This document shows positions 2,796 to 13,261 of a stretch of DNA of 64,000 nucleotides, piece by piece. The stretch is from an uncultured Bacteroidales bacterium. GTDB lineage: Bacteria > Bacteroidota > Bacteroidia > Bacteroidales > P3. Location: NCBI GenBank assembly GCA_905233475.1, contig CAJOEN010000004.1:16407-80406 (forward strand), in the 5' to 3' direction. A program made the position numbers and the translations under genes. Within the stretch, counting starts at the first letter, position 1; each line of letters starts with the position of its first letter. Under the pieces are notes generated by a model. The model searched no databases, was not told the origin of the DNA, and was given only the letters and a program-made list of their open reading frames with translations.

Positions 2796-3971
2796 TTATT
2801 TCAAGAAGCTCAGCAGGATACCTGCGGCCACTGCCGAACCCACCACGCCCGAAACATTGGGAGCCATGGCGTGTTGCAGCAGATAGTTGGTCTTGTCGTA
2901 TTCCAGACCCACGTTGTTCGACACACGTGCACTGTCGGGCACGGCGCTAACACCGGAGTTACCGATAAGCGGGTTGATTTTGTTGCCTTCCTTCAGGAAC
3001 AAGTTCATGAATTTCACAAACAGCACACCGAAAGTCGTAGCCACTACGAACGATGTTGCACCAAGTGCGAAAATAAGTATCGACTTGGGAGTGAGGAACT
3101 TGGTAGCCTGGGTAGAAGCGCCCACCGTCAAACCGATAAGGATTGTGGCGATGTCGATGATGGGACCCGAAGCGGTATTTGCCAGACGTTTGGTAACGCC
3201 GCTCTCTTTCAGCAGGTTGCCGAAGAACAGCATACCCAGCAGCGGCAGACCCGTAGGCACCACAAAGCAGGTGAACAGAACACCCAAAATCGGGAAAGTG
3301 ATCTTCTCCAGTTTCGACACTTGACGCGGCGGTTTCATGCGTATCACGCGCTCTTTCTTGGTGGTGAACAGTCGCATGATAGGCGGCTGAATCACAGGCA
3401 CAAGAGCCATATACGAGTACGCCGACACCGCTATGGCTCCCATTAGGTCGGGCGCCAGCTGCGACGAGATAAAGATTGCCGTAGGACCGTCGGCACCGCC
3501 AATGATACCGATGGCGCCGGCTTCAGCAGGAGTAAATCCCAATGCCAACGATGCCATGTAGGCCGCAAAGATACCCACCTGGGCGGCGGCGCCAATAAGC
3601 ATCAGCTTGGGGTTGGAAAGAAGTGCCGAGAAATCGGTCATGGCTCCGATGCCCAAGAAAATCAAGGGCGGATACCAGCCGTTCTGCACTCCGTGGTAGA
3701 GAATGTTCAGCACACTGCTCGTCTCGTATATACCCGTCTTCAATCCGGGGAAGAAAGGGATGTTACCTATAATCATACCAAATCCGATGGGTATGAGCAG
3801 CAGCGGCTCGAACTCTTTGGTGATGGCAAGGGTGATAAACACCAAGCCTATCAATATCATTACAAGGTGCCCTATCTCGAAATTAGCAAAAGCAGTGTAA
3901 TGCAGGAACTGCATCATCTGGTTCTGCATAAAATCCATAAAGCCACCTGTGCTTTCTGCTAATGTAATCAT
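2796..3971 (-). CDS. mmdB: Methylmalonyl-CoA decarboxylase, membrane beta subunit (Na+ pump)
   Basis: A 391-residue, very hydrophobic protein of the OadB/GcdB/MmdB family. It carries the two most conserved blocks: GGADGPTAIF with the ion-binding aspartate, and NSGVSAVPDSARV near the C-terminus. The family decarboxylates carboxybiotin in the membrane and couples this to Na+ export. It is the last gene of a minus-strand operon that also encodes the carboxyltransferase (mmdA), biotin carrier and small membrane subunit, and is 6 nt from the biotin carrier gene. The neighbouring epimerase and acyl-CoA carboxyltransferase favour methylmalonyl-CoA over oxaloacetate or glutaconyl-CoA as substrate; this assignment is contextual. 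Confidence 0.93.
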   Translation of the reverse strand: MITLAESTGGFMDFMQNQMMQFLHYTAFANFEIGHLVMILIGLVFITLAITKEFEPLLLIPIGFGMIIGNIPFFPGLKTGIYETSSVLNILYHGVQNGWYPPLIFLGIGAMTDFSALLSNPKLMLIGAAAQVGIFAAYMASLALGFTPAEAGAIGIIGGADGPTAIFISSQLAPDLMGAIAVSAYSYMALVPVIQPPIMRLFTTKKERVIRMKPPRQVSKLEKITFPILGVLFTCFVVPTGLPLLGMLFFGNLLKESGVTKRLANTASGPIIDIATILIGLTVGASTQATKFLTPKSILIFALGATSFVVATTFGVLFVKFMNLFLKEGNKINPLIGNSGVSAVPDSARVSNNVGLEYDKTNYLLQHAMAPNVSGVVGSAVAAGILLSFLK

Positions 3972-8138: not shown

Positions 8139-8178
8139 TGCAAAGATACAAAATATTTTTCAAACGGCCAAAAGTTTT
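8139..8178 (-). promoter_or_regulatory. Promoter of the mce-mmd operon; copy 1 of a 40-bp direct repeat
   Basis: Read on the minus strand, this segment holds TTTG, then 20 nt, then TATCTTTG (box at 8141-8148), the Bacteroidetes -33/-7 promoter. The same 40 bases recur without a mismatch, in the same orientation, at 13161-13200 on the other side of the DGR; the bases just outside differ (a/t on both ends). Confidence 0.8.
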
Positions 8179-8349
8179 AGCTCTAAAAACACAAACAGTT
8201 CGTTTCGCTCACTTTTTGTATTCTCCTGCTTGCCTTCGGCTCTCGAATTACGAAGTATTCGGGAACTCCTTTGAGATTAAATCCAATATGGTGAACAAAT
8301 CTTGTAAATCTATTAGATAGATTCTGCCTCCGGCAGAAAGAAATGAAAC
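8179..8349. other. Intergenic mosaic downstream of the RT gene
   Basis: No gene seen. A perfect hairpin TTCTGCC-tcc-GGCAGAA lies at about 8325-8341, just behind the RT stop. The segment around 8219-8248 (ATTCTCCTGCT followed by a GC-rich imperfect dyad) resembles 31102-31131 in the adk-obgE spacer, so it may belong to a dispersed intergenic repeat. Confidence 0.4.
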
Positions 8350-9564
8350 TTATCTTAATAATCTATAATGCTTAAATGCCAAATCAAACATACCGCATTG
8401 GCAGAATTTCTCCTCTCTTGAAAACAAATTCCTACGATTGTTGAAATTATTCCAGTGTGAAAGCAGTCCACAATAAGAATTAAGTGGAGCGTACCATTTA
8501 TAAGACGGCAGTGCAGACAACAATGCCATTTTCCTTCCAATGCGTCCCATGCTATTTCTCGATATATATATTCTATGAGGTTTAAGCCATGCCCCAAGAA
8601 ATTCCACACCATGCCAAACGGAAAAAACTTTCAGTTTTCCCTCGTGAAAATCAAGCCGCAACTGTTCTTTCAGTATAGACCTGACTTGTGGCACCAACGA
8701 AAGTAACCATTCCTTATCGGCACTGACAACATAAAAGTCGTCCACATAGCGACCATAGTGATGAGATTTCAGTTCCCGTTTCATAAATTGGTCAAGAACA
8801 TTGAGATAAACATTGCTGAACAATTGAGATGTGAGATTGCCAATGGGCAACCCACATCCATTGGGTGAATGAAACAAACTTTTTTCGCGAGGTAAATCCG
8901 ACCAGTCAAAACGACTGCCTTTTACGATACAATCTTTCGTCGGATCCAACATGACAATAACTTCTGTAAGATATTTGATGAAATCCACATCAATGACCTC
9001 ATTCCAAATAACATTCCTGTGGCATGAAACTCGGTGCACAGCCATACTGTCAATTGTGGAGAAACATATATCAAGCAACCGTTTTCTGTCAATGTGCATA
9101 AAATAGCCGCGTATATCCATTTTCATCACATAGCAGGGCACGTTGTAATTGCGGCTTTCCTTCCTTATATGCTTTTCAAGTCGTTTTATTCCATAGTGTG
9201 TGCCTCTATTTCTGATGCAACTGTAAGTGTCGTGGATAAAAGTACTCTCAAACATAGTGTGTGTATAGTTGTAATATAGGTGGTGCACAATTCGGTCTCG
9301 AAAATCTGCAGCGAACACCTCACGTTTTTTAGGGTCGTTGATTATAAAGCAGGTTGATGGACGTGGAACGTATTTCTGTGCAACCAGTTCGTCGCACAAG
9401 TTGGCAAGGTTTGTTTCCAAATCAGCCTCAAACTTCAACTGATATGGTTTGTTACGCTTATGACGGCGGGCATCAAAATAAGCCTGACGCAGGTCTGCAA
9501 ACAATTTGTCCCGCGTCAGGCGATAATTGGAACTTGATGGTAAGTGCTGACGTGCGGAACGCAC
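8350..9564 (-). CDS. DGR reverse transcriptase
   Basis: A reverse transcriptase of the diversity-generating retroelement class. It opens with the typical LRQAYFDARRHK helix, then VFAADFRDRIVHH, the diagnostic DGR motif LPIGNLTSQ (about 8824-8850) in place of the QGxxxSP of other RTs, and the catalytic YVDD at 8737-8748. No maturase, endonuclease or integrase domain follows, so it is not a group II intron or retron RT. There is no ATG near the expected N-terminus; the frame is open through the whole template repeat up to 9747. I place the start at a GTG (9562-9564) inside the template repeat, giving 404 residues; a TTG some 60 nt further in, or a GTG at 9745-9747, are alternatives. It copies template-repeat RNA with errors at adenines. 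Confidence 0.9.
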   Translation of the reverse strand: MRSARQHLPSSSNYRLTRDKLFADLRQAYFDARRHKRNKPYQLKFEADLETNLANLCDELVAQKYVPRPSTCFIINDPKKREVFAADFRDRIVHHLYYNYTHTMFESTFIHDTYSCIRNRGTHYGIKRLEKHIRKESRNYNVPCYVMKMDIRGYFMHIDRKRLLDICFSTIDSMAVHRVSCHRNVIWNEVIDVDFIKYLTEVIVMLDPTKDCIVKGSRFDWSDLPREKSLFHSPNGCGLPIGNLTSQLFSNVYLNVLDQFMKRELKSHHYGRYVDDFYVVSADKEWLLSLVPQVRSILKEQLRLDFHEGKLKVFSVWHGVEFLGAWLKPHRIYISRNSMGRIGRKMALLSALPSYKWYAPLNSYCGLLSHWNNFNNRRNLFSREEKFCQCGMFDLAFKHYRLLR

Positions 9565-9744
9565 AGGACGGACACTGAGCCCATAGTTGCGATTGTTGTT
9601 GTTGTTCGTGTTCACGTTGTCCGAATTGAAGTTGAGGTTCCACGCGTTGTTCGGGTTGCTTGTGTTGAGAGAACTCGACCAGTAGTTGCCGTTGCTGCCG
9701 GCGTTGTTGAGTGAACTGTCCCAGTGGTAGCCTGCAGCGGGCAA
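9551..9744 (-). repeat. DGR template repeat (TR)
   Basis: 194 bp that align without gaps to the variable repeat at 10565-10758. On the coding (minus) strand all 28 differences that I count fall on template adenines. Read in the frame of the variable protein it gives 19 asparagine (AAY) codons, the classical design in which A-to-N mutation of AAY yields many residues and never a stop. It sits directly upstream of, and overlaps, the RT reading frame. The 144 nt between it and the accessory gene (9745-9888) hold no gene and probably form the 5' part of the template RNA. Confidence 0.95.
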
Positions 9745-9888
9745 CACTTTTTTTTGCGACAGCGGTCATTATTGTTTCCGAAACGAGAGGAATGCCTTTG
9801 TGCAAGCCAATCGTTCCATCGGTGTTATCCCACTGTGTAGCGGGCCGACCGCCTGTGAACTTACCCTTGCAGTGTTCCGTTTTTGGTG

Positions 9889-10428
9889 TTACAATATTTC
9901 GGAAATCTGTTGTTTTGTTTCTGAAAGAAAAAACATACACTCCATTGGCGAATGTTGCTCTATTGGATACGAAAGAATATCAAGCATTATATCGGTCAAA
10001 CGAGGATGTGCATTCCGTTCGGCACGCGACTTTTCTTCCTCGGCTTTTTTCTTCGAGGCCTCGGTCAGCGGCTGATTCCTTTTCCAGTTGCCAAAGTCGT
10101 TTTGCAATGCCTGCACCTCGGCCTCCGGCGGAAAAACAGATGTCTGTAAAACTATATCCACATTATTGTTTTCCAATGTTTTAACACTGGCTCCTTCGGG
10201 CGTGTAACGCTCAATGCTTGTAACCGGAAAGCCCACAAAAGCCACATCCTCTCCACCTTTGAGTAGCCGGTGGGTAATTTTCAATTCCTTGAAATACTTT
10301 ACACTCAACCATGCACTCCAATCGTATGCACGATAAAAAGTGCCCTCGCGAAACAAGTGTATCACCGAACATTGTTCCAATGAAATGCGTTCCTTTTCCT
10401 TTTCCAATATTTCTTTCAATTGTGCCAT
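9889..10428 (-). CDS. DGR accessory protein, MutS-like (MSL) type
   Basis: 179 residues between the variable-protein gene and the template repeat, same strand. The N-terminal part HLFREGTFYRAYDWSAWL resembles the first (mismatch-recognition) domain of MutS, where a phenylalanine-rich strand contacts DNA; no ATPase domain is present. DGR surveys describe three accessory types, Avd, HRDC and MSL; there is no Avd-like four-helix protein in this cassette, so this gene is the likely accessory. A coiled, Lys/Glu-rich segment (KKKAEEEKSRAE) lies in the C-terminal third. The MutS-like call rests on short motif similarity; the position in the cassette is the stronger argument. A role in template RNA handling or target pairing is inferred. 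Confidence 0.75.
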   Translation of the reverse strand: MAQLKEILEKEKERISLEQCSVIHLFREGTFYRAYDWSAWLSVKYFKELKITHRLLKGGEDVAFVGFPVTSIERYTPEGASVKTLENNNVDIVLQTSVFPPEAEVQALQNDFGNWKRNQPLTEASKKKAEEEKSRAERNAHPRLTDIMLDILSYPIEQHSPMECMFFLSETKQQISEIL

Positions 10429-10456
10429 AAATTGTTTGTTTTTTTATATTACTTGT

Positions 10457-10550
10457 AAAAAAAACTGCCGGACGGTGGCTGGATAGCGCACTCCGTGCGC
10501 GCCACCGCCCTACAGTTTTTTATGCCCGTGTTTTTCTGCCCGTGGGGGCA
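10457..10550. other. Hairpins downstream of the variable repeat
   Basis: Two inverted-repeat structures follow the stop of the variable protein. TGCCC-gtgg-GGGCA (10537-10550) begins 11 nt past the gene. Then a long composite dyad: AAAAACTG and CAGTTTTT flank CGGTGGC (10473-10479) / GCCACCG (10501-10507), which enclose GCGCAC-tcc-GTGCGC (10486-10500). In the Bordetella phage DGR a hairpin/cruciform just behind the variable repeat is needed for target recognition; the larger dyad may also terminate transcription. Confidence 0.6.
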
Positions 10551-10560
10551 AGGGCAAGTT

Positions 10561-12786
10561 CTACCGGGCGGAACGCACAGGACGGACACTGAGCCCATAG
10601 TAGCGACCGTAGTAGTAGTCCGTGCTCACGTCGCCCGAATCGAAGTCGAGGCCCCACGCGCTGCTCGGGCCGCTCGTGCTGAGAGAACTCGACCAGTAGA
10701 AGCCGTAGCTGCCGGCGTCGTAGAGTGAACTGACCCAGCGGCAGCCTGCAGCGGGCAAAAAAATGCTTCTCCCGTTGGAGGACGTGAAACGCCTACCGTA
10801 AACACCGTTTTGGGTTGTCCATTGGGAAGTGGTGTTGTTTATTAATTCTCGCCATTCCGTGGCGGTCGGTGTTCGGGCACCACCGCCCCAGTTGGCTGTG
10901 GCCGCGTCGTCGCCGGCCTGCAAGGTGGTCAAATTGTCGGTAAAGGTAAAACCGTTATAGCCGTAAGATGAATTGCTGCAGTATTTGGTAAGTGTATTAT
11001 AGCTACCGTTGCAGTAGCGGTAGGTGCTCCAATCGTAAACGCTTTTTGGGGATGTCTCGCCCCATGCAAAATAGTCGCCGTAATCCTCCGGAGAGGTGGC
11101 TCCCACATTGCGTGTCGCCCACAAAATTCCGCTCGGCAAACCCAAGTCCACCCAGTCGCCTGTAGAGTTGTCGCGCGGAACCTTCACCGTGTCCCATGCT
11201 AATACGTTGCCGTTGGGGTCGTACAGTTTGGCATACAGCACATCGTTGGTCGTGGGTGTCCATGTTACGGATACCGTGCCGTTTCTGGCAATGCCGTACT
11301 CGGAAGAAAGCTGGCCGTTGGCCTCGAATTTTACTATCTGCGACAAAGGTGTCAGCACTTCCCTGCCAAACAAATAGTTCTGGTCGTAAATATTGAAACT
11401 TACCATGGCACTTTGTCCCTGCGTGGGGCGGCCTGAGGCGTGTACCACTTTCTTGGGCGAGTGGTAAAGTTTGCGGTCTATAACATTCCAATTAGGCGTG
11501 GAATAGTTTTCTATCTCGTAGCCCATAAAACGGAGACTCAGCCCACAACTGGCATCCATGCCCGCATGGCAGTCGAGGCTCCAAGCACAGTAGTCGTTGC
11601 TTTGTCCAAGCATTTGTTCGCGGAAACCTCCGCGTATTGTGTCGGCAATATAGGGCTTGAAATCGAAAGACGGACCGATAATGTCCTCAAGCATCACACT
11701 AACACGCGGAAAAGCCCAAACCTTGGCCTGCACCTGTCCCTTGCCTTCAACCGTGGGAGGAATCAGTGTAAAAGTGTTGTTGAAAGACGAGATTGGTGTC
11801 ATGCCACCAGTCTGTTCCCACTTGAAACCCACACGCCCCTCGGCGTTGTCGGTGAAACCGGCGTATGCGTGCATCTCTCCACTTGCCGAAAGTTCTACTT
11901 GTCGGAACAAGTCGGCCCGCAATGTTACAACTACTGGCACACCGTATACCAGAAACCTTACAGGTATGGGGCGGAAAAGATTGTGCTTCCAAAGGTCGTA
12001 ATCCGGATTGTATCGGCAGCTGCCCTGAATGTCGCAGCGAACCTTCTGTTCGGTGGAGAACCTGCCTACAAGCTCAGCTGTTATTTTCAATGCACGGCTT
12101 CTGTATCTTTCAACGGCATCGCCAACAATCTCTCGCACCGTTCTGCCGCCGAAGTTCATGTTCATCTCGAGGTCGAGGCTGAGGTCGAAGTTCATTTTCT
12201 CCAACATAACAGTGTAGTTGCTTCCAGAAAACAAAACTGTGTTGTCGTAGTTGGTTTCTGGAAGTCGCCATATTTCTCCGGTAAGGCGGGAGTTTCCCTT
12301 AGCCCTTACATCCAACGCATGGTATTTGCCGTGTTTGTCGATCTGCCATGCCCTCACAGGGTGGAACACCATGCCTGTGGATTTTGATTTAGTCCTTCCT
12401 TCGGAGGCGGTGGAGAGTGTGAAGCCAGAATTGTAGAATATGTCCGTAAGATAGGCTTCGGAAGTGGCAACTCTCATTGTGTTTCCGTTCACACTCACCG
12501 TTTCAACAAAGCGGTAGTACACTGCGGTGTCGAGGTCTATAGTGATAATGGAGCCCACATGTATGTCCGGCACACTGTCGGTGAACTGTATTTTATAGAC
12601 TCCCGCACTGTCTTCCGACGACAGCAAGTTAGCTCTGTTCCAGTCTATCGGAACGTACTCAGGGTTGATGTTAATCTCGTCGAACTCCCCAAATTCTTCG
12701 TTGGGGTCGTCCTTTTTGCAACTTGCGGCGAGCACCATCGCCACTGTCAGCATTACGGCCGCTATGGCCTTTGTGTATTTGTGCAT
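10561..12786 (-). CDS. DGR-diversified surface lipoprotein with C-terminal FISUMP/C-type-lectin-like domain
   Basis: 741 residues. Signal peptide with lipobox VLAASC (Cys23) and acidic residues after it, so an outer-membrane, probably exposed, lipoprotein. A long middle part (about 30-540) is beta-rich and not recognised. From about residue 545 it has the Fibrobacter-major-paralogous/FGE-like module: WVDLGLPSGILWATRNVGA, YFAWGE, ARTPTATEWREL, and a final 65 residues (677-741) with YWSSSLSTS and GLSVRPVRSAR that are the variable repeat. This matches the C-type-lectin fold of known DGR targets, whose hypervariable residues line a ligand-binding face. It heads the cassette; a duplicated promoter lies 375 nt upstream. 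The ligand is unknown. Confidence 0.93.
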   Translation of the reverse strand: MHKYTKAIAAVMLTVAMVLAASCKKDDPNEEFGEFDEININPEYVPIDWNRANLLSSEDSAGVYKIQFTDSVPDIHVGSIITIDLDTAVYYRFVETVSVNGNTMRVATSEAYLTDIFYNSGFTLSTASEGRTKSKSTGMVFHPVRAWQIDKHGKYHALDVRAKGNSRLTGEIWRLPETNYDNTVLFSGSNYTVMLEKMNFDLSLDLEMNMNFGGRTVREIVGDAVERYRSRALKITAELVGRFSTEQKVRCDIQGSCRYNPDYDLWKHNLFRPIPVRFLVYGVPVVVTLRADLFRQVELSASGEMHAYAGFTDNAEGRVGFKWEQTGGMTPISSFNNTFTLIPPTVEGKGQVQAKVWAFPRVSVMLEDIIGPSFDFKPYIADTIRGGFREQMLGQSNDYCAWSLDCHAGMDASCGLSLRFMGYEIENYSTPNWNVIDRKLYHSPKKVVHASGRPTQGQSAMVSFNIYDQNYLFGREVLTPLSQIVKFEANGQLSSEYGIARNGTVSVTWTPTTNDVLYAKLYDPNGNVLAWDTVKVPRDNSTGDWVDLGLPSGILWATRNVGATSPEDYGDYFAWGETSPKSVYDWSTYRYCNGSYNTLTKYCSNSSYGYNGFTFTDNLTTLQAGDDAATANWGGGARTPTATEWRELINNTTSQWTTQNGVYGRRFTSSNGRSIFLPAAGCRWVSSLYDAGSYGFYWSSSLSTSGPSSAWGLDFDSGDVSTDYYYGRYYGLSVRPVRSAR
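10565..10758 (-). repeat. DGR variable repeat (VR)
   Basis: The recipient counterpart of the template at 9551-9744 (offset exactly 1014). It encodes the last 65 residues of the lipoprotein. Twenty-three residues differ from the template translation, including every template Asn (now Tyr, Asp, Ser, Gly or Phe). The last ~35 bp before the stop are nearly invariant, as expected for the initiation-of-mutagenic-homing segment. Confidence 0.95.
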
Positions 12787-13160
12787 GGTTTATATGTGTT
12801 TTTAATTTTTGCGTTGATTCCCTGCCGCTGATTTTTTTTTCAAACTAAAACACAATTAAAAAACGTGGGAATCAAGTCCTTTGCTTATCCCACCATTCAG
12901 GCTCTCGCATTGCCATTAAGTAGAGAATAAGCAATGCCGAAGCCCACGTGTGCTGTATAATAAACATCCGTTTGCGCGGACACAATTATACATACATGGA
13001 CGTTCACCCACTGCTTTATCGTGCTACTTTGTGCGAACTTGCGAGATCCGAATGGTCGCAGATAAAACTTCAGTTCAACGTCTTTTAATTATGTCTGTCC
13101 TTTGCCCCCACCCCCTATACGCAAAGGAATTGCCCACAGGGGCTTCGGAACAAAAGACTT
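12787..13160. other. Leader region of the variable-protein gene, no gene seen
   Basis: 374 nt with no convincing reading frame. It can fold: GCATTGC (12907-12913) pairs with GCAATGC (12931-12937), extended by GGCT/AGCC, and ACGTGGG (12863-12869) can pair with CCCACGT (12943-12949). If transcription starts at the promoter in 13161-13200, this is a long structured 5' untranslated region. Confidence 0.45.
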
Positions 13161-13200
13161 TGCAAAGATACAAAATATTTTTCAAACGGCCAAAAGTTTT
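13161..13200 (-). promoter_or_regulatory. Promoter-like copy 2 of the 40-bp direct repeat, upstream of the DGR
   Basis: Identical to 8139-8178. On the minus strand it has TTTG, 20 nt, TATCTTTG (box 13163-13170) and points towards the variable-protein gene 375 nt away. It marks the right border of the DGR segment. Confidence 0.7.
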
Positions 13201-13229
13201 TTATCCGTAAAGGATTCGGCAAAGTTTTT

Positions 13230-13261
13230 TTTGAAAAGACGCTTGATTTTTCGTATTTTTG
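13230..13261 (+). promoter_or_regulatory. Promoter of the M64 peptidase gene
   Basis: TTTG at 13230-13233, 20 nt, TATTTTTG at 13254-13261; start codon at 13297. Confidence 0.7.

Follow-up and report, generated by a model that had tools for sequence, protein, structure and literature searches.

How diversity-generating retroelements (DGRs) find their targets and protect their templates is an open question, and the two steps are known mostly from one phage element with the accessory protein Avd and a hairpin. In this element, BPP-1, the hairpin behind the variable repeat (VR) is required (PMC3240598), and a difference between its IMH and IMH* sites (initiation of mutagenic homing) has been described (PMC12875486). 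Among other accessory proteins of DGRs, HRDC and MSL have been named, the latter corresponding to PF01624 (PMC10053308). Here, a window of 64,000 nucleotides from an uncultured Bacteroidales bacterium (contig CAJOEN010000004.1) was analysed, in which positions 8350-12786 hold an element that by its sequence features is a member of the MSL-type DGRs; the DGR class itself is already known. It appears moderately probable that the template RNA of this element carries, besides a conserved predicted junction, a 14-nt segment, G, complementary to a segment V directly behind the VR, and that G guides the RNA to its target gene. The guidance step, in which G would pair with the 3' flank of the target, is inferred, and we take it to apply to MSL-type DGRs in general. 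The element comprises the following features:

10561-12786, minus strand: target gene, lipoprotein-like, 741 aa.
10565-10758, minus strand: VR, formed by the last codons of the target gene, with 29 of 29 mismatches at adenines of the template repeat.
10548-10561, minus strand: V, directly behind the VR, GAACTTGCCCTTGC, with 14 contiguous pairs with G, one of them G.U.
10537-10550, minus strand: short hairpin behind the VR, TGCCC-CCAC-GGGCA, with a 5-bp stem in a BPP-1-like position.
9889-10428, minus strand: MSL accessory gene, 179 aa, with MutS domain I and a helical C-terminus.
9857-9870, minus strand: G, guide-like 5' segment of the template RNA, GCAAGGGTAAGTTC, complementary to V and more weakly to T.
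9753-9866, minus strand: predicted structured RNA, a three-way junction of about 114 nt between MSL and the template, with covariation.
9551-9744, minus strand: template repeat (TR), from the comparison of TR and VR.
9539-9545, minus strand: T, the 3' flank of the TR, ACTTACC, which pairs with part of G and so encloses the RNA element and the TR.
8350-9747, minus strand: reverse transcriptase (RT) open reading frame (ORF), with the conserved RT part from near 9525 and matches to RVT_1 and phrog_1423.

The TR and the VR differ by 29 mismatches over 194 nt, all 29 at TR adenines. An extension of 12 nt past the TR end included four more differences, one at an A and three at non-A positions. The RT ORF matched RVT_1 (9.9e-13) and phrog_1423 (2.9e-84) and has the motifs LPIGNLTSQ and YVDD, which identify it as a DGR-type RT. 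An earlier note on this DNA had described a lipoprotein gene, a MutS-like gene, a template repeat and an RT following each other on the minus strand in 4.4 kb, with these two RT motifs and no recombinase. All four parts were located in this order, both motifs are present and no recombinase-like match was found among the three cassette proteins; the reading as a DGR holds on the sequence features tested, but the RNA element and the complementarity between guide and target had been missed. In the genome-wide search for further VRs, which the same note had proposed, the TR matched only itself and the VR, and three other lectin-like genes of the genome were not among the matches.

G forms the start of the RNA and ends at a conserved CAYAGG. 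In the window its 14 contiguous pairs with V (9857-9870 with 10548-10561) include one G.U pair, and V is the sole such site in the 64 kb, both strands included, besides the complement of G itself. The free energy (dG) of the duplex is -21.3; as good a partner was found among none of 44 foreign sequences in each direction and among three of 1000 shuffled versions of V.

At the level of the sequences compared, G changes in step with V, and more weakly with T, across related loci. The longest perfect match between G and V, determined for 39 non-redundant of 46 loci, had a mean of 8.92 nt, against 4.57±0.24 when the partners were swapped (0/2000), and reached at least 7 nt in 33 of the 39. For G and T the corresponding values in the same loci were 4.77 and 4.15±0.15. 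Mean duplex energies over 45 loci were -18.5 kcal/mol for G:V (-8.8±0.5 permuted; 0/5000) and -12.3 for G:T (-8.1±0.4), G:V being the stronger in 38 loci. Also length changes are shared by G and V (L090, L095). The G:V counts were made without L028, L030, L063, L086, L088, L101, L103, L105, L120 and L121, and the energies also without L133; the duplicates L085, L112, L129, L131 and L136 were left out of the counts of G, T and V and used in the VR pair comparison. Ten loci outside the G:V counts were analyzed later (the left-out loci except L030 and L133, plus L182), several of them near kin of included loci; a match at the VR end with p ≤ 0.032 was present in eight, including a 10-nt match in L182 from the window's congener G002. 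A search not anchored to the VR end, run on 15 of the MSL loci, gave p < 0.05 in 11 of these.

The helix of G with T in the window (GGTAAGT/ACTTACC) encloses both the junction and the template. Its covariation over the loci is imperfect, with 78.4% paired against 66.8±1.7% permuted (0/10000; 37 distinct combinations), a count that still includes L025, L026, L028 and L087, whose 3' site we judge to be wrong, and from which L030 and L086 were dropped for having no 3' site.

The predicted junction is composed of P1 (9853-9848 with 9766-9761), the hairpin P2 and the stem P3 with tandem mismatches. When the 14 bacterial loci were folded together with RNAalifold, 17 pairs were obtained, 14 of them with pairing-preserving changes on both sides. 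In folds of single sequences P1, P2 and P3 were visible by eye in six of eight; thermodynamic stability alone is not the evidence for the RNA, because the shuffle z-scores of single sequences were only +0.27 to -2.16. A covariance model, R1, was built from the 14 bacterial loci and then run on 54 viral-contig loci outside the model, although three of them (L134-L136) closely resemble L031, one of its sequences. It matched 47 of these, 44 at E ≤ 0.01, and the match lay ahead of the TR wherever a TR was known. The seven misses (L093, L117, L118, L124-L127) are stretches without an RT motif on the MSL strand and without TR/VR. In an alignment of 55 distinct rows fitted to R1, 86.8% of the cells pair and the covariation was 0.601, compared with 0.238±0.012 when shuffled (0/500) and at most 0.098 when slid; in P1, where up to six pair types occur, pairing reached 99.1%. 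Refolding this alignment with RNAalifold produced P1 and P3 again, with 16 pairs, 14 of them with double changes, and the G.U pairs point to the minus strand as the RNA strand. The duplicates L060-L062 (same contigs as L021, L020 and L032) were left out.

R1 found no match in RT relatives without a close MSL (L002-L011, L014-L016, L018, L027, L033) nor in the genomes G019 and G036, and a class-wide search of 395 genomes with stricter filters gave a match in one only, the window's own. An Rfam scan of 8300-13250 yielded two matches at E ≤ 5, neither overlapping the RNA element. The two DGR-linked RNAs of Rfam, RF03022 (Phage_DGR) and RF03018 (RT-15), were recovered in BPP-1 and in four other phages but had no match in this stretch at E ≤ 5, none in L021 5400-6100 at E ≤ 10, and none in 13 MSL loci (RT-15 at gathering threshold).

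V is also present away from the cassettes. A second VR occurs in both L020 and L021, again with V kept (energies -19.2 for VR2 of L020 and -19.8 for VR2 of L021), and a VR-like copy on another contig of genome G797 keeps a V with an energy of -23.3 with the G of that genome. In genome G796 the second R1 match belongs to an orphan unit, a lipoprotein gene with VR2, RNA2 and TR2 (L181, G796:C5, about 17.1-18.6 kb), in which TR2 and VR2 differ over 180 nt at 1 of 124 non-A and 29 of 56 A positions. Neither RT nor MSL was found near the orphan by tblastn in 20 kb (17 kb on the RT side and about 1.4 kb beyond the target gene), and its composition suggests an RNA unit that works with RT and MSL from elsewhere. 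The energies in G796 were -22.5 for G1:V1, -7.9 for G1:V2, -17.3 for G2:V2 and -10.3 for G2:V1; among the target flanks of this one genome, each G thus fits its own V best, as would be predicted of a guide.

Judged from the aligned repeats, relatives vary at A positions, and between near-identical viral contigs the VR differences are almost confined to template A. Compared with the window target, six homologues (P0122-P0127, of 120 listed) show differences in 49-67% of the A-containing VR codons, in 3-31% of the other VR codons and in 4-34% of residues 1-540. The IMG/VR pair L134/L136 had 22 VR differences, 21 of them at template A, with one difference in 187 in the TR and flanks 99% identical, and both VR differences of the IMG/VR pair L111/L112 were at A, with identical flanks. 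Between L128 and L133, 24 of 26 VR differences were at A, the upstream part was 94% identical and the stretch from VR to TR identical, while the downstream part could not be compared without gaps. More distant pairs had more non-A differences, for example L113/L116 with 16 of 26 at A (21 pairs compared).

The target protein has a lipobox-like start (VLAASC), a beta-rich stalk, an Ig-like domain (441-540) and a variable C-terminus, which is likely of the C-type-lectin kind. The C-type-lectin-like end named in the earlier note was recovered as a match to Pfam Lcl_C, yet only below the curated cut-off (29.7 against 34.9 bits); among the aligned target homologues, 23 of 34 match Lcl_C at E ≤ 0.01. 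The predicted structure of the 741 aa is middling (predicted local distance difference test, pLDDT, 72.9). The search with the whole model had no lectin among the matches listed, which does not exclude a lectin fold, and no sequence relative was found in the PDB at E ≤ 1.

The MSL protein matches PF01624 with 21.4 bits (curated cut-off 20.6) and also by fold; at E ≤ 0.01 the profile is matched by 29 of the 47 members of the family. Mismatch-repair MutS proteins have a Phe-X-Glu motif whose Phe probes the mismatch, and the genome's own MutS has FYE at this site. Phe is kept in 46 of the 47 MSLs, but 45 have Arg at the Glu position and so lack the motif of mismatch-repair MutS. The tandem pyrimidine mismatch of P3 is CU/UU in 44 of the 55 alignment rows and able to pair in 5 of 110 cells. 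Our guess is that this mismatch is what MSL binds, which would fit an RNA mismatch and the kept Phe.

RT relatives were detected at 14 loci in bacterial species genomes, many of them metagenome-assembled genomes of ruminant-gut Bacteroidales, and 12 of the loci have a related MSL (L020-L026, L028-L032; not L027 and L033). The protein collection yielded 223 MSL relatives and IMG/VR 51 loci, yet no match was found in annotated phage or plasmid collections. MSL-type DGRs are common in IMG/VR contigs (L083-L136, 54 loci), so that the class is shared by cells and probable phages. The survey behind the naming of MSL reportedly dates from 2018. In L027 (5860-6020) a VR is joined straight to a TR-type 3' flank ahead of the RT, and MSL, RNA and TR are missing, as if recombination between VR and TR had deleted them. 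L065-L069, L071 and L079, from other genomes of this bacterial order, contain distant MutS-domain-I-like matches and no GNLTSQ RT motif in the locus stretch, possibly representing another system; at L070 and L074 the motif is present beside such matches.

In the mechanism that we propose, the transcript would act as an RNA of the order G-junction-TR-T. The junction would be the binding site of RT and MSL, and the invariant CU/UU mismatch of P3 may be what MSL contacts there. At the target, G would leave its weaker partner T and pair with V in the opened DNA, and the displaced opposite strand, which resembles G, could pair with T at the template 3' end and prime cDNA synthesis. The RT would misread template adenines and the cDNA would replace the VR, so that a lipoprotein predicted to lie on the cell surface acquires a diversified tip. 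The template locus would be spared because T is usually a poorer partner of G than V is, a situation that may be likened to the IMH/IMH* difference of BPP-1 (PMC12875486).

Several results weigh against guidance by G. The G:V match was shorter than 7 nt in 6 of the 39 loci, and L028 and L121 had no match in the later test. The unanchored search gave p < 0.05 also in 3 of 13 control DGRs without a close MSL, BPP-1 with 9 nt, and in the window alone the longest perfect stretch is 7, broken by the G.U pair, with p 0.275. Five other sites in the 64 kb bind the 21-nt stretch of G more strongly via bulged duplexes, and in only 23 of 45 loci did G pair best with the V of its own locus. In G796, G2 pairs better with T1, the template flank of the other cassette (-18.2), than with V2. 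VR-like gene ends in G796 and G797 (L181 near 2.8 kb, L183, L184, L185, L187) have flanks, such as GAACTAATCTTTTGTTCTCC, that fit neither known G well; it may be that a third template RNA is missing or was lost. The contig L002/L073, with a distant MSL, had no R1 match. Furthermore, RNA:RNA energies were used as a proxy for RNA:DNA pairing, and the loci are related, so that the permutation counts are not true probabilities. Lastly, the RT frame of the window, which stays open through the template, contains no ATG at the conserved start of the RT or before it. Its candidate starts are GTG 9747, GTG 9564 and TTG 9504, and because of the lacking ATG the expression of this RT is uncertain. The RT has no internal stop, but the earlier remark that all parts look intact holds only with this reservation.

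This missing start could mean that the window copy is decaying, its RT untranslated and the cassette no longer diversifying, and in 10 of the 14 RT relatives an ATG does lie within six codons of the conserved RT start. We regard this as hardly probable: the RT has no stop and does have in-frame GTG codons, and the window VR differs from the TR at A only. Moreover, the three nearest relatives, L020-L022, also lack an ATG between TR and RT, with one ATG inside the TR, and yet their TR/VR differences are A-only or nearly so (24 of 25 at A in the least clean). A rather unlikely alternative concerning the pairing itself is that G and V, lying on either side of the MSL gene, meet within the mRNA of the operon and act on the processing or stability of this RNA, or on how MSL and RT are expressed, instead of on the choice of a target. 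One presumed transcript carries V, MSL and G in their usual order, and G is complementary to the sense strand, which makes pairing in the mRNA possible. However, V is kept by the remote VRs outside the operon (VR2 of L020, VR2 of L021, the other-contig copy of G797), and in the orphan cassette no MSL gene separates V from G and no RT follows, although both the remote VRs and the orphan could have inherited V by gene duplication.

It is also conceivable, but in our view quite improbable, that G and V are what is left of a BPP-1-like hairpin, one arm of which was copied ahead of the template, and that only this hairpin and the helix of G with T are of importance today. Stems of at least 6 bp behind the VR were present in 20 of 44 loci, against 1.7 expected, V is one arm of the hairpin in several loci (L104, L098, L109), and both the required hairpin of BPP-1 (PMC3240598) and the slightly better pairing of the orphan G2 with a template flank than with its own V would agree with such an origin. 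In the window, the 5-bp stem is weak alone. Of the 24 loci without a stem of this length, 22 nevertheless have a G:V match of at least 7 nt (twins counted together), and across diverged loci G and V change in concert, lengths included.

If guidance by G is correct, target choice would follow a 7-14-nt code readable from sequence, and with the G:V code genomes could be searched for remote targets and orphan templates. The MSL protein would gain a role, and DGRs without Avd would have an RNA model specific to them. The wider proposal, that a branch of gut Bacteroidales and phage DGRs is RNA-guided, with several template RNAs, even orphan ones, each with its own targets and all sharing one RT, and with a MutS domain turned into a reader of the CU/UU mismatch in RNA, is tentative and in our judgement slightly doubtful.

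Outside the cassette, a perfect direct repeat of 40 nt is present on both sides (8139-8178 and 13161-13200), with no third copy in the genome at up to three mismatches. On the minus strand it resembles a promoter of the Bacteroidales consensus (TTTG, TATCTTTG), and promoter identity would also explain its presence on both sides. When an empty insertion site was looked for in three congeners, the flanking M64 peptidase and glyoxalase genes were on separate contigs, and no other flanking gene of the window was found in the M64 stretches.

In the accessible parts of the openly licensed literature on DGRs, mutagenic retrohoming and RT-15, no description of this RNA or of the guide pairing was met. 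The RT-15 RNA (RF03018) resembles the window RNA in position, being a structured RNA directly ahead of the TR in four phage DGRs, two of which have an annotated Avd, but differs in giving no covariance-model match. In two of the four RT-15 phages (L190-L193), an 8-nt complement of the VR flank occurs ahead of the TR (p 0.035 and 0.045). RNA-guided retroelements such as group II introns use base pairing between their RNA and the DNA next to the insertion site, and the RT starts copying from there; the pairing beside the target proposed here is alike, while no group II intron match was found in 8300-13250. At its 5' end the RT ORF shares sequence with the TR, as in DiGReF group 3, where the TR overlaps one or the other end of the RT ORF (PMC3521204), but here the overlap occurs in a small clade without an ATG between TR and RT. 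The MSL-bearing DGRs have the same accessory domain beside a DGR RT and a TR/VR pair as the window; unlike in our reading, no RNA element or guide is described in the accessible part of PMC10053308. The BPP-1 DGR of the Bordetella phage (RF03022) shares with the window the RT, the TR, a VR at the 3' end of the target, a structured RNA beside the TR (predicted in the window) and possibly a hairpin behind the VR, which in the window is a short 5-bp stem, but its accessory protein is Avd and its RNA lies 3' of the TR (2750-2882, with the TR at 2887-3020, minus strand). Furthermore, the stem sequence behind the BPP-1 VR can vary (PMC3240598), whereas in the class of the window V tracks G.

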